Virus record (IMG/VR): IMGVR_UViG_3300017749_000088
Coordinates: 1-28,839 of that record
Length of the DNA: 28,839 nt
Reading direction: 5' to 3' (one strand)
Source: a virus
The notes under the pieces were generated by a model. The model was not told the DNA's origin, did no database searches, and saw only the letters and a list, made by a program, of their open reading frames with translations. Positions 4,432 through 9,692 of this stretch are shown piece after piece (within the stretch, counting starts at the first letter, position 1; the number at the start of each line of letters is the position of its first letter). Made by a program: the position numbers and the translations under genes.

Positions 4432-5157
4432 GTGCCGAGAATTAAAAAAATATCAGAATTTAAACCTTTAATTACTAATCTTGCACAGACATCTCATTAT
4501 CAAGTCATGTTTGGTGGGTTGAATGGTCAACTGAGTACACATTTAAATTCCAGAGGAGTAGATACAAGATTTATCACAGAAAGTTCTGGTTTATTATGTT
4601 CTTCTGCTTCCATTCCTGGTAGTTCATTAGCAACTGCGGACATCAATGGAAACTTTATGGGATTGCAAGAGAAGATGGCACATACCCGAATTTTTACTGA
4701 AATGCAATTGGAATTTTATGTTGATTCTGATTATAGAATGATTAAGTTTCTAGAGCACTGGATGGAATTCATTACAGATGGTTCGGAAGTTAACCAAACT
4801 GAAAAAACATATTATTATAGAATGAGATTTCCGGATGAATATAAATGTGACAAAACAAAAATTACAAAATTTGATAGAAATGGTGATAAAGAATTAGAAT
4901 ATACCTTTATAGGATTATTTCCAAAAAATTTAACATCTATTCCAGTTTCTTATGGAACTTCTGATATATTAAAAGTCAGTGCTTCATTTGAATATGAGCG
5001 TTATATTGCTGGTAAGACAACATCGAAGAGTGTAAAAAGTGGAACTAGTAATAATAGAGGATCTGTAGATTTTAAAACATCAGTTGAATTAGGTTCTCGA
5101 ATAGATTTTGGAACCAATAATGTAAGAGATCAAATTTCAAATAATAATCTTGTTTAA
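4432..5157 (+). CDS. 54: gp54 baseplate tail-tube initiator
   Basis: This 241-residue protein is the likely gp54 (T4: 320 residues), a tube-fold protein that sits on gp48 and starts polymerisation of the tail tube. It has the tube-protein layout: an N-terminal H-Y-Q-V-M-F-G-G-L strand, a strand with C-S-S-A-S-I-P-G-S-S-L, F-Y-V-D-S-D-Y-R-M-I-K-F-L-E-H-W-M-E-F-I in the helix region, and a late strand pair with Y-T-F-I-G-L-F-P-K-N-L-T-S-I-P-V-S-Y, echoing G-C-I-P-I-S-V in T4 gp54. The C-terminus is S/N-rich. The start is GTG at 4432; no in-frame ATG lies nearby upstream. A shared tube-protein (gp19-like) role is the alternative. Confidence 0.75.
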   Translation: MPRIKKISEFKPLITNLAQTSHYQVMFGGLNGQLSTHLNSRGVDTRFITESSGLLCSSASIPGSSLATADINGNFMGLQEKMAHTRIFTEMQLEFYVDSDYRMIKFLEHWMEFITDGSEVNQTEKTYYYRMRFPDEYKCDKTKITKFDRNGDKELEYTFIGLFPKNLTSIPVSYGTSDILKVSASFEYERYIAGKTTSKSVKSGTSNNRGSVDFKTSVELGSRIDFGTNNVRDQISNNNLV

Positions 5158-5198: not shown

Positions 5199-5918
5199 AT
5201 GCCTTTACCTAAAATTAATACTCCAATCTATGAGTTGGAATTGCCTTCGACTAAAAAGAAGATTAGATATAGACCATTTTTAGTAAAGGAAGAAAAGATT
5301 CTAATTATTGCGATGGAATCTGAAGATCAGAAACAAATTACGACTGCTATCAAAACTATAATCGGCAACTGTATTCTTTCTAGAGGTATTAAAGTAGAAC
5401 AACTATCTACTTTTGATATTGAATATCTTTTCTTAAATATCAGAGGTAAATCTGTCGGAGAAGAGGTTGAAGTATTATTGACTTGTCCTGATGATGAAGA
5501 GACGCAAGTTTCTGTAGTTATTAATCTCGATGATATTAAGGTTCAATCTGATAAAAATCATTCGAGAGATATTGTATTAGATGAAAATCTAACTATGAGA
5601 ATGAAGTATCCTTCTCTAGATGAGTTCATTAAATCTAATTTTAGTTTTGATGGTAAGTTTGGTGTGGATGAATCATTCCAACTAATTGCTTCTTCGGTGG
5701 AGCAAATTTATAATGAAGAAGAGTCATGGAATTCTTCTGATTGTAGTAAGAAAGAAATGCTTGATTTTATTGAGCAATTGAGTTCCAAACAGTTTAAGGA
5801 AGTTGAGAATTTCTTTGAGACAATGCCAAAACTTTCGCATACTGTAAAACTAAAAAATCCAAATACTGGGGTCGAAAGTGATGTTGTATTAGAAGGTCTT
5901 TCCAGTTTTTTCGCATAG
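5199..5918 (+). CDS. 26: gp26-like baseplate hub / tail chaperone protein
   Basis: The 239-residue product resembles the gp26 baseplate family of T4-like phages (T4: 208). The N-terminus P-I-Y-E-L-E-L-P-S-T-K-K-K-I-R-Y-R-P-F-L-V-K-E-E-K is characteristic, followed by I-E-Y-L-F-L-N-I-R-G-K-S-V-G-E (about residues 75-90) and an acidic middle. The last codons before the TAG stop are S-S-F-F-A, read from a run of six T. That run forms a TTTTTTC slip site in phase, so part of the ribosomes may shift by -1 and continue into gp51, giving a 301-residue fusion. The gene is followed by gp51 and a tape-measure-like gene, the usual place of tail assembly chaperones. In T4 gp26 is needed for hub assembly; a chaperone role here is inference. 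Confidence 0.85.
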   Translation: MPLPKINTPIYELELPSTKKKIRYRPFLVKEEKILIIAMESEDQKQITTAIKTIIGNCILSRGIKVEQLSTFDIEYLFLNIRGKSVGEEVEVLLTCPDDEETQVSVVINLDDIKVQSDKNHSRDIVLDENLTMRMKYPSLDEFIKSNFSFDGKFGVDESFQLIASSVEQIYNEEESWNSSDCSKKEMLDFIEQLSSKQFKEVENFFETMPKLSHTVKLKNPNTGVESDVVLEGLSSFFA

Positions 5919-5948
5919 GTATGGCGCATACTGACCTTGCGTCATACT
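5892..5948 (+). promoter_or_regulatory. Programmed -1 frameshift signal joining gp26 to gp51
   Basis: The elements, in order: GAAGG at 5892-5896 (Shine-Dalgarno-like), heptamer TTTTTTC at 5906-5912, in-frame codons TTT and TTC at 5907 and 5910, spacer of 5-6 nt containing the TAG stop, then a stem pairing 5919-5928 with 5938-5947 (10 bp, one G-U) around a 9-nt loop. Slipping back one base continues as Arg-Ile-Gly and then the gp51 Met at 5921. This is the arrangement known from dnaX and from phage tail chaperone genes. The efficiency cannot be read from sequence. Confidence 0.75.
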
Positions 5949-6103
5949 ACCAAATAACATTTGCCCTGATGCAGCATCATCATTGGTCTTTGACTGAGTT
6001 AAATGAGATGATACCCTGGGAGAAGGACATTTACCTCACTTTATTAGAGCAATATATTGAAGAAGAAAAATTAAAGCAACAACAGAATGGGACAAATTGC
6101 TGA
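5921..6103 (+). CDS. 51: gp51-like baseplate hub assembly protein (likely frameshift extension of gp26)
   Basis: The 60-residue ORF begins M-A-H-T-D-L-A-S-Y-Y-Q-I and contains W-S-L-T-E-L-N-E-M-I-P-W-E-K-D-I-Y-L-T-L-L, a pattern used for gp51-like proteins in cyanophages and typical of the second part of tail chaperones. It is far shorter than T4 gp51 (249). The ATG is only 2 nt after the gp26 stop. A clear ribosome binding site at normal spacing is lacking (AGGT abuts the ATG; GAAGG is 24 nt away), and the ATG lies inside a 10-bp stem. I therefore think it is made mainly or partly as a C-terminal extension of gp26 by -1 frameshifting (238 + 3 + 60 residues). The end is lysine/glutamine-rich, and a similar stretch is encoded again just downstream. 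Confidence 0.7.
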   Translation: MAHTDLASYYQITFALMQHHHWSLTELNEMIPWEKDIYLTLLEQYIEEEKLKQQQNGTNC

Positions 6104-6148
6104 TAAATAATATTGTTGAAGAAGAAAAATTAAAACAGCAGCAAAGCA
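6057..6148 (+). repeat. Duplicated gp51 tail sequence
   Basis: A 19-nt exact copy (6057-6075 and 6116-6134) is followed in both copies by nine bases that differ but still encode Q-Q-Q. Copy 1 is the end of gp51 (E-E-E-K-L-K-Q-Q-Q then N-G-T-N-C stop). Copy 2 reads V-E-E-E-K-L-K-Q-Q-Q-S-S-A-N and a stop, but in another frame. A late promoter motif lies between the copies, so copy 2 is now in the leader of the next gene. Confidence 0.75.
6102..6109 (+). promoter_or_regulatory. Candidate late promoter upstream of tape-measure-like gene
   Basis: GATAAATA fits the NATAAATA form reported for T4-like cyanophage late promoters. It overlaps the gp51 TGA stop codon (6101-6103) and lies 39 nt before the GTG at 6149. 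Confidence 0.6.
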
Positions 6149-8005
6149 GTGCTAACTAATAAATCTTTCAGAGCACCACAATTAAATATGAGGAGAAGTA
6201 AAATTTCTCCTACTAAAATTTCTCCTAGTAAAATTGCTAATACTGGGGCAAATCCTTATACTGGGGAATACTTATCTGCTGGAGAGAGAAAATTATTATT
6301 TCAGAAAATAAATGTAAGTTCTGCAAATGTTTTTAAGAAATCAGGAGCACTTGTAAAAACAACACCATCTACAATCACTCCAGATATTAATGTTACAGTT
6401 TTATCTAAAAGAGTTTTTGTATTAGAAAATGATGTTTCTTTTCTAGCAAAGGCATTAAATAAGGAAGCAGAACTTGAGAAGAAGGCACAGAAACAATATG
6501 AAAAAGATGCAGAAAAAGTAGAAGAAAAGAAACTTAGATCTGGTGAAGAGAAAAAATTAGAGAAAAAAATAACGAAAGGGTTAATTTCTCCAGTAAAAGC
6601 AGTAGGAAAAAAAGCAGGAGGAGTTCTTGGAACCTTGATGGAACTCTTCATGACTTTACTTGGAGGGTGGTTAACAAATCAAGGATTAGAGGCAATAAAT
6701 GCAAATGCAGAAGGTAATATTGGTAAATTAGAATCAATAGCAGCAGAAGTTGGAAAAACTCTTTTAACTGTTGGTGGAATATTCGCATTATTGAATGGTG
6801 GAATACTTGGTATTGTTGCTACTATCGGTGCGATAACTGCTGCTATTATTGCTGCACCATTTAAATTTGCATTTAGAAAACTTAGAGAACTTGTCACAGG
6901 AAAACCAAAACCTCCTGGTGCTGGTGGTGGAAAACCTGGTGCTGGTGGTGGTTCTGGGGGAACAGGAGGTAGTTCTAGATTAAATTATGGAAAAAATGTA
7001 GATCCAACAACTGGAAAACCATTAAGAAGTAATTCTAGTATTAGTAGATTTAATGATTCTTTTTCAAGAAAAATTCAAGGAAAAGCAAATCTTGGAGACA
7101 AAGCAAGATTATTTTTTAGAGGTGGTGCAAAAGAAATAATTAATAATATTCTTAAAAGATTTACAGGAAGTACTCCTATAAAAGCAATTAAAGGAGTTCT
7201 TAATTTTATAAAAAATAGTCCTGGGGGAAAACTTGTTGGATGGGCTTCAAAACCATTCATTAACTTTGGTAAACATGCACTTGGTCTTTTTAAACCAGAA
7301 AATTTAAAAAAAATTGGAACATCACTTGGAAAAGTGGGGGTACTATCTAGACTTCTTCCTATATTATTTGGAGTCATTGATGTTAAAAAAAGAGCAAATC
7401 AAGGAATGTCTCCTGCACAAGCAATTATCCCTGCAATATTAAAAACATTAATGACCAGTGGTGCTGCTATTCTTGGTGGATCGGTTCCAATTCCTGGACT
7501 TAATATTTTAACTTCTTTTGCTGGTGGAACTGCTGGTGCTTGGTTAGGTGATAAAGTTATGGGAGGAATTGATAGTATATGGGATAAATCATGGGATAAT
7601 AATCTCTTCAAAGGATTTAATAAAACTGTTATGGGTATTGGAGAAAAGGATCCCACAGGATTAGTAAGTAAAATATTTCCATATGAAGGAAAAGATAAAA
7701 AATATGATTCTAAAGTAGCATCAACACCAGGAGCACCAACACCAGCAGTAACAACACCAGTACCAGGAGAAATGCCTGCTGCACAAATTGCTTCTCCATC
7801 TTCTCCATCAATGTCAGTACCAGGACCAGTATCTGGTGGTGGGAATACAACCGTAATTTATAAGAAAGTCGGAGGTTCTGGAGGACAGATGCAGGGACAA
7901 CCACTTAAGAGTGGATCTGCGACTGATGTCCCATTGATTGCTTCGGCAGATCCAAGCAATTTCTATACGATGTATTCTCAACTTCTCTATAATGTGGTAG
8001 GTTAA
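6149..8005 (+). CDS. Tape-measure / baseplate hub-like structural protein (gp29 position)
   Basis: This 618-residue protein is not confidently named. Features: a basic N-terminus with repeated S-P-T-K-I-S-P motifs, a charged coiled-coil stretch around residues 95-145, a hydrophobic helix segment around 165-240 rich in G, A, I and L, a glycine/proline linker (about 250-275), a second helical half, and a P/A/T-rich C-terminal segment (about 525-565). This composition, the length (T4 gp29: 590) and the position right after the gp26/gp51 chaperone pair point to the tape measure protein that sets tail length. The start is uncertain: GTG at 6149 lacks a good ribosome binding site, and the ATG at residue 14 (6188) is an alternative. 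It ends one base before the next gene, which has a similar hydrophobic segment. Confidence 0.55.
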   Translation: MLTNKSFRAPQLNMRRSKISPTKISPSKIANTGANPYTGEYLSAGERKLLFQKINVSSANVFKKSGALVKTTPSTITPDINVTVLSKRVFVLENDVSFLAKALNKEAELEKKAQKQYEKDAEKVEEKKLRSGEEKKLEKKITKGLISPVKAVGKKAGGVLGTLMELFMTLLGGWLTNQGLEAINANAEGNIGKLESIAAEVGKTLLTVGGIFALLNGGILGIVATIGAITAAIIAAPFKFAFRKLRELVTGKPKPPGAGGGKPGAGGGSGGTGGSSRLNYGKNVDPTTGKPLRSNSSISRFNDSFSRKIQGKANLGDKARLFFRGGAKEIINNILKRFTGSTPIKAIKGVLNFIKNSPGGKLVGWASKPFINFGKHALGLFKPENLKKIGTSLGKVGVLSRLLPILFGVIDVKKRANQGMSPAQAIIPAILKTLMTSGAAILGGSVPIPGLNILTSFAGGTAGAWLGDKVMGGIDSIWDKSWDNNLFKGFNKTVMGIGEKDPTGLVSKIFPYEGKDKKYDSKVASTPGAPTPAVTTPVPGEMPAAQIASPSSPSMSVPGPVSGGGNTTVIYKKVGGSGGQMQGQPLKSGSATDVPLIASADPSNFYTMYSQLLYNVVG

Positions 8006-8006
8006 G

Positions 8007-9692
8007 ATGGCAGTAGCAGCAGTAGCAGCAGGAGCACTTAGAATAGGTTCAATGTTTGCCAAAGGTGCTGGTTCAGTTCTTTCTGGTGGAGCAAGGGGAG
8101 TTGGTAGAAGTGGAGGAATGCTTCGTAGAGCAGTTCTTAAAAAGACTAAAGTAAAGAGAGAAAATATTGCAAGAAGTAGAAGTTTTAATAAAAAACTTAT
8201 GGAGAGAAATAAGAGAAGACAAAAAGAAAAAACTATAGAAACTTTTAGTATAAAAAAACCTAGACTTGGAAGAATTCCAGGTAAAAGTTTTTTTGATAGG
8301 ATTTTAGATTTTATTGGAACTTTATTTCTTGGGTGGTTATTTAATAATCTTCCAAAAATTATAAAGTTTGTTCAAGATTTAATTAAGAGAATAAATCTTC
8401 TTATTGATAGTTTGAAGAGTTTTGTCGAGAATGTTGGAAAATGGTTTACAGGATTAAAGAATGTGGTCGTTGCTGGATATGAAAATTTAAAGAATTTTGA
8501 TTTTACAGATAGTGAAGGAAAATTAAAAAGTGCATTGGCTGAAATGGATGGTGCATTTAAAGGAATGCAGACTGATGTTGAGGGTATGAAGAATGCTTTG
8601 ACTGCTGATATGAGTGGAGAAACTTCTGGTGGTGCTGATGCATCTGGTGGTGCTGTATCAATCGATGATCCAAATGCAAGAGCATTACTTAATGCCATAG
8701 CAGAAGCGGAAGGAACTTCTAAGTATCAAAATCAAGGATATAATACACAATTTACAGGAACACAGTTTAATGATCTTTCAAAACATCCAGAACAAATAAG
8801 ATCATCAAATGGTCTTGCTTCCGATGCTGCAGGGAGATATCAATTTTTAAGTACAACTTGGAAAAGTGTAATGGGTGGAGCAATGACTCCATCGAGACAA
8901 GATGAAGCAGCACTTAAACTAACTTCTGGTCGGGGAGTTAATATTAAAAATGGACTGTCATTAAACGAGATTTATAAATTGGGTGGGGAATGGGCATCTA
9001 TTGAGGGTGGACCCCAAATGAGAAAGGGTGGTTCTTATGGATCTCAAGCAAAGTATAGTGCTGAAAAGTTTCTTCAAATGTATCAAAAATATGGAGGTAA
9101 AGTTGAAGGTCAAGAAGGTGGTAGTGGTGGAAAATATGGTGGTGGTGGAGGAAATGTTGTAGAATATATTACAGGAGATAGAAGGCACCCAAACTTTGAA
9201 TATAATGGTCATGGGAGAGAATCAAACTATCATGATCACATTGCCTTTAAAACTCTCCAAGAAAAACAGAGAGCAAAAGCAGCATTACGTGCGGCAGGAA
9301 TACAAATAGGTAGTGAATATAGACTGGGAGATCCTGGATGGCACGGAGCAAACTTGGCAATTGATGTTCCTGGAGCACAATGGGGTGGTAGTGGTGCAAT
9401 CGGACAACGAGAATATAATGGTTCTGCAAGAGTAAGGCAGGTATTAACAAATGCCGGATTTGGTGGTGCAGGATTAGGACATGGATCAAGTGCAATCTCT
9501 CGATCTCCGGGAGTGATGCCTGATATTGGATATTCAACAGGACCACAAAATGCAATCATAATTATAGAAGAAGAAGCACCACCACCAATGATGATGGGAC
9601 AATCTGGAGGATCTTCTCCAATTATTGTTATGGGTGCCTCGTTAAATAGTATTATGAAAAGAAAATTACTAACAGATTTAGCATATACTTAA
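8007..9692 (+). CDS. Virion protein with lambda-type lysozyme domain and peptidase-like C-terminus
   Basis: The 561-residue product starts with a basic, alanine/glycine-rich region (1-90) and a hydrophobic helix (about 93-130, F-I-G-T-L-F-L-G-W-L-F-N-N) like that of the preceding protein. Residues 224-365 resemble phage lambda endolysin R, a GH104 lytic transglycosylase: A-E-A-E-G-T-S with E235 at the place of catalytic Glu19, then G-Y-N-T-Q-F-T-G, H-P, A-G-R-Y-Q-F-L-S-T-T-W, and a late W-A-S-I-E-G-G. After a glycine linker, residues 383-495 hold H409-D-H411 and H446-G-A-N-L-A-I-D453-V-P-G, which look like metal ligands of a D,D-peptidase (M15-like) fold. It probably acts at the tail tip to open the peptidoglycan during infection, replacing the lysozyme domain of T4 gp5. 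Confidence 0.75.
   Translation: MAVAAVAAGALRIGSMFAKGAGSVLSGGARGVGRSGGMLRRAVLKKTKVKRENIARSRSFNKKLMERNKRRQKEKTIETFSIKKPRLGRIPGKSFFDRILDFIGTLFLGWLFNNLPKIIKFVQDLIKRINLLIDSLKSFVENVGKWFTGLKNVVVAGYENLKNFDFTDSEGKLKSALAEMDGAFKGMQTDVEGMKNALTADMSGETSGGADASGGAVSIDDPNARALLNAIAEAEGTSKYQNQGYNTQFTGTQFNDLSKHPEQIRSSNGLASDAAGRYQFLSTTWKSVMGGAMTPSRQDEAALKLTSGRGVNIKNGLSLNEIYKLGGEWASIEGGPQMRKGGSYGSQAKYSAEKFLQMYQKYGGKVEGQEGGSGGKYGGGGGNVVEYITGDRRHPNFEYNGHGRESNYHDHIAFKTLQEKQRAKAALRAAGIQIGSEYRLGDPGWHGANLAIDVPGAQWGGSGAIGQREYNGSARVRQVLTNAGFGGAGLGHGSSAISRSPGVMPDIGYSTGPQNAIIIIEEEAPPPMMMGQSGGSSPIIVMGASLNSIMKRKLLTDLAYT

Follow-up and report, generated by a model that had tools for sequence, protein, structure and literature searches.

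The window, positions 1–28,839 of IMG/VR virus record IMGVR_UViG_3300017749_000088, is a cyanophage-like contig whose nearest named relative is the Synechococcus phage S-SKS1 (gp26 98.7% identical). The tail tube gene is followed by gp26, by the small gp51 reading frame (5921–6103), by two long ORFs, the second at 8007–9692, and then by hub genes (Table 1). The match of gp26 to PF12322 scores 253.7 bits against a curated cut-off of 24.5, and a second PF12322 gene was not found in this 28.8-kb genome fragment. The order tube–gp26–gp51–long ORF is that of lambda V-G-T-H, with the first long ORF a tape measure candidate by position only; in Sinorhizobium phage phiM12, an ORF shortly 3′ of gp51 is annotated as tape-measure-like.

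Table 1. Features of the gp26–gp51 locus in the window.
Feature	Position	Strand	Evidence
Tail tube protein	4432..5157	+	PF23849 1.4e-24, phrog_45 3.8e-45; lambda V position
gp26, 239 aa, putative short form (TAC-N, lambda G-like) of the tail assembly chaperone	5199..5918	+	PF12322 2e-75, phrog_150 3.4e-82; AlphaFold2 model, pLDDT 86
GAAGG, Shine-Dalgarno-like, possible stimulator	5892..5896	+	sequence; 9-nt gap before slip site
Slippery heptamer T_TTT_TTC	5906..5912	+	in phase; present in 135/137 relatives
Putative −1 frame extension of 63 aa, forming the C-terminal end of the long product (TAC-NC, GT-like; fusion 301 aa)	5912..6103	+	phrog_634 8e-26, C-terminal part of phrog_150
TAG stop of gp26, within the slip site–stem spacer	5916..5918	+	sequence
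Stem-loop, 10 bp plus outer G-U, probable frameshift stimulator	5918..5948	+	folding energy; pairing and covariation in 52 sequences
Long ORF, candidate tape measure protein (lambda H position)	6149..8005	+	synteny; profile matches only weak

The 3′ end of gp26 reads TTT (5907–5909), TTC (5910–5912), GCA and the TAG stop, which places TTTTTTC in the X_XXY_YYZ phase of gp26, 3 nt before the stop. These codons bear out the slip site described in the initial annotation. The spacer that separates the slip site from the stem holds the gp26 stop, as stated there, and the −1 frame does run through Arg-Ile-Gly into the gp51 Met, ending at the stop codon 6101–6103. The TTTTTTC string alone is no evidence, since its 15 copies in the window show no excess over the 17 expected. 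In codon phase, TTTTTT[A/C/T] occupies 2 of the 7,322 codon positions in the window's genes, and gp26 has the sole gene end, among 21, with an in-phase heptamer near the stop. The arrangement at the end of gp26 is far beyond chance. The upstream GAAGG is present at the distance first described, but it follows automatically from conserved Glu-Gly codons (GARGGN), so that a separate test of this element is impossible.

The slip site is conserved far beyond the window's clade, in cyanophages at large and in many remote T4-type phages. Among 137 IMG/VR and GenBank loci that contain a gp26 homologue, 135 carry an in-phase TTTTTT[C/T] 7–16 nt before the gp26 stop. Counted per lineage, the heptamer is kept in 34 of 36 at 70% protein identity and in 13 of 15 at 50%, and the keepers include Kyanoviridae, Sinorhizobium phiM12, Pseudomonas Milchi, Stenotrophomonas Yut2 and Straboviridae such as Aswh_1 and LPCS28. 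Given a Phe-Phe pair and each gene's own codon use, the chance that all 13 lineages with the heptamer show NNT and then TTT is ~1e-10; none of the 11 other Phe-Phe pairs in gp26 genes has a T wobble followed by TTT. The heptamer is absent in two relatives, Vibrio K397 and Aeromonas phiA8-29, where the extension still lies in the −1 frame. These two share A_CTT_TTC near the gp26 end (L095, 2040–2060; L096, 2220–2240), which may be another kind of slip site, similar to the one in T7 gene 10.

Downstream of the heptamer, positions 5919–5928 and 5938–5947 form a stem of 10 bp with one G-U, to which the outer G-U at 5918/5948 can be added. The stem begins 6 nt after the heptamer, within the 5–9 nt downstream at which a stimulatory RNA structure is placed, and its folding energy of −16 kcal/mol (z −3.6) is equalled in 0 of 200 shuffles. 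Across 52 sequences from the window's clade and its neighbours, 97.6% of cells in the stem are paired. Positions 5926 and 5940 form G-C in 38 sequences, U-A in 11 and A-U in 3, giving 14 double changes, a number that 0 of 500 shuffles reach; compensatory change is limited to this one pair. Its 5′ base falls at the third, silent position of an Ala codon, but a change of the 3′ base turns Ala into Glu or Val, a pattern that speaks for selection on RNA pairing. The stem is therefore a probable frameshift stimulator, as judged from pairing and covariation in the aligned loci.

A single stem common to all clades was considered and rejected, since the clades differ in their hairpin or have no strong one. 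Bellamy, ACG-2014j and S-CAM3 have another stem than that of the window, and a strong stem is absent in Aswh_1 and in most contigs of L117–L138. The S-N03 group (L089, L104, L109 and L111) carries its own 10-bp hairpin, CAATGATGCAC/GTGCATCATT, 7 nt after the heptamer and unlike the stem of the window, apparently an independent solution. The 10-bp stem-loop first described is thus real and covarying in its own clade but clade-specific, and it is not essential in general, because in other clades the stem differs or is lacking. The initial annotation had named slip site, phase and stem as features to be followed through related phages: the first two are kept in nearly all loci, whereas the stem persists inside the clade but is swapped or absent elsewhere.

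Every locus has a conserved domain encoded in its −1 frame, marked by a Tyr, a Phe, Gln-x-His and 'YSLTELENMIPWE' among 86 distinct extension peptides. Its counterpart in T4 is part of a larger protein. Both T4 gp26 (208 aa) and T4 gp51 (249 aa) match PF12322 and phrog_150, and of the two, gp51 alone covers the C-terminal part of phrog_150 and phrog_634. Profile HMMs were built without T4 sequences, avoiding circularity, and were compared with 1,000 shuffled controls. The gp26 HMM finds T4 gp26 (1e-19) and T4 gp51 (0.0015), and the HMM of the −1 extension finds the C-terminus of T4 gp51 (E 3e-6), each above all 1,000 controls. On these profile matches, T4 gp26 and gp51 are paralogues, T4 gp51 evidently being the long (GT-like) form that carries the extension. 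The cyanophage 'gp51' matches only the C-terminal tail of T4 gp51. Since T4 gp51 is a full-length gp26 paralogue with the extension, it is the cyanophage frameshift product, and not the small ORF, that would correspond to it. The initial annotation was right that the T4 genes are separate and divergently oriented, but cyanophage gp51 should not be equated with T4 gp51. T4 thus has two divergently oriented genes for the short and long forms, whereas cyanophages would use one gene with a −1 frameshift; the slip site is absent from the end of T4 gene 26, which reads GAG TTC TTT GAG TTA CTA TAA. T4 gp51 is required yet absent from the particle; T4 gp26 is tabulated as a hub assembly chaperone, and some genetic work puts it in the hub (PMC3004832).

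The predicted structure of gp26 supports the G/GT analogy. In an AlphaFold2 model based on 37 relatives, residues 1–88 were compared with solved structures by VIA-align. The top three matches are 3fgx (Z 7.8), the HK97 tail assembly chaperone gp13 (2ob9, Z 7.8) and YqbN (3klu, Z 7.1), followed by the phage-satellite protein 5ir0 at Z 4.9 and unrelated chains at no more than 4.1. Foldseek alone gave no significant solved match for gp26, and a sequence search against solved structures found no gp26 relative. Z scores below 8 are moderate, and the phage-type proteins at the top fit the synteny; gp26 is accordingly predicted to have a tail assembly chaperone fold. HK97 gp13 and YqbN resemble residues 1–88, and gp26 is ~150 residues larger.

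Lambda G and GT, the prototype, are among the closest known arrangements: a short protein and its −1 frameshift-extended form encoded between the tail tube and tape measure genes. The body of gp26 (239 aa) is larger than in lambda and the heptamer differs from that of lambda, which is G_GGA_AAG. In lambda, the binding partner of G is the tape measure, and that of T the tube protein (PMC5009743). The predicted chaperone fold, the lambda-like gene order and the match of T4 gp51 as a long gp26 support the proposal in the initial annotation that these proteins form a G/GT-like pair, with the chaperone function itself read across from lambda. On the sequence evidence and this analogy, gp26 and 'gp51' are very probably one gene read in two ways, giving a short and a 301-aa long tail chaperone through −1 frameshifting. 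Most ribosomes would stop at the TAG at 5916 and release the 239-aa gp26 (TAC-N). From the phase and conservation of the heptamer, the coding of the −1 frame, and the pairing and covariation of the stem, we infer that slippage occurs: a minority of ribosomes would pause at the hairpin and move one base back on U_UUU_UUC, with both Phe-tRNAs re-pairing with UUU, and then continue through Arg-Ile-Gly-Met and gp51 to yield the fusion (TAC-NC). If labour is divided as in lambda, the tape measure protein would be coated by many short and a few long copies, whose extension would recruit tail tube subunits.

A separate small gp51, made by reinitiation at ATG 5921 just after the stop (TAG, 2 nt, ATG), with the T run and the stem incidental, would account for some of these observations. 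An ATG follows the gp26 stop by 2 nt in most members of the window's clade, and an ATG lies within 30 nt of the heptamer in 69 of 90 distinct junctions. The lack of a well-placed ribosome binding site for gp51, cited earlier in favour of frameshifting, proved weak when the positive control failed: the ATG of gp26 itself has no Shine-Dalgarno motif in 57 of 70 relatives. We dropped it as evidence; such a lack is normal for these genes, which counts in favour of reinitiation. The start codon, however, is not conserved, whereas the heptamer and its phase are. In 16 of the 90 junctions, the nearest ATG, GTG or TTG is more than 60 nt from the heptamer, which leaves frameshifting as the obvious route to the conserved domain there. 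A start at the head of this domain is absent in S-T4, Bellamy, S-CAM3, ACG-2014j, Aswh_1, LPCS28 and many IMG contigs, all of which keep the heptamer in phase. Reinitiation also leaves the fixation of NNT_TTT_TT[C/T] unexplained, and in T4 gp51 the same C-terminal part is fused to a gp26-like body. As a replacement for frameshifting we consider it improbable; stop-start reinitiation at that ATG could nevertheless be a route to free gp51 as well. Less probable still, and to our mind very unlikely, is slippage of RNA polymerase on the run of 6–7 T, which would give mRNAs with gp26 and gp51 fused in frame. The near-universal retention of that run would suit it, but the run is kept in codon phase and closed by C in nearly all loci, and a covarying hairpin 6 nt after the heptamer suits ribosomal −1 frameshifting better; a T6 is also short for polymerase slippage.

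Frameshifting in tail chaperones has been described as conserved in long-tailed phages 'except T4' (PMC5009743). As recounted in PMC10885494 and PMC12846349, Vladimirov et al. 2022 identified the tail chaperones of T4-like phages. Some T4-like phages have two genes, one short and one long and fused (PMC10885494), and PMC12846349 refers to Vladimirov et al. 2022 for the poly-T slip sites that T4-like phages have in their TAC-N genes. The TAC loci of Vandenendeviridae and Andersonviridae described in PMC12846349 have a TAC-N/TAC-NC pair and a poly-T slip site, as here. A direct report of a cyanophage tail frameshift was not found in the literature searched, where Vladimirov et al. 2022 is represented by the papers that cite it. 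Going by these papers, the cyanophage frameshift chaperone has largely been anticipated, and this case may already be described; the earlier identification of T4-like tail chaperones lowers the novelty accordingly. Annotations of cyanophage genomes now list two proteins, gp26 and a small gp51, or have gp51 cut short or missing; P-SSM2, P-SSM4 and S-SKS1 are examples with both annotated, and in several deposited genomes it is missing or begins inside the conserved domain. A short and a frameshift-extended chaperone would be the better annotation. The old T4 hub genes 26 and 51 would thereby be linked to the lambda G/GT principle, and the two phage groups offer a natural comparison in which the same chaperone pair is made by frameshifting or by gene duplication.

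We lean towards a broader reading in which the poly-U frameshift is ancestral and near-universal in tail chaperones of the T4 superfamily, stems were gained and lost independently by clade, the two genes of T4 are a derived replacement by gene duplication, and the frameshift product may control how the tape measure gene is translated. The last point comes from the stop of the extension, which in 75 of 122 loci (IMG and GenBank) overlaps the long ORF that follows, much as lambda T overlaps H by 8 nt; translational coupling of the long chaperone and the tape measure protein through this overlap is possible. In the window, the gp51 stop and the next start are 45 nt apart, separated by a partial duplication. 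The 3′ end of gp51 looks recombined or partly duplicated (6030–6160). The ORF terminates in QQQNGTNC and a stop at 6103, after which the usual C-terminal coding sequence (EEEKLKQQQSSAN, then stop) occurs a second time; a relative, L005, has a single copy. The next ORF starts with GTG at 6149, within the duplicated C-terminal remnant.
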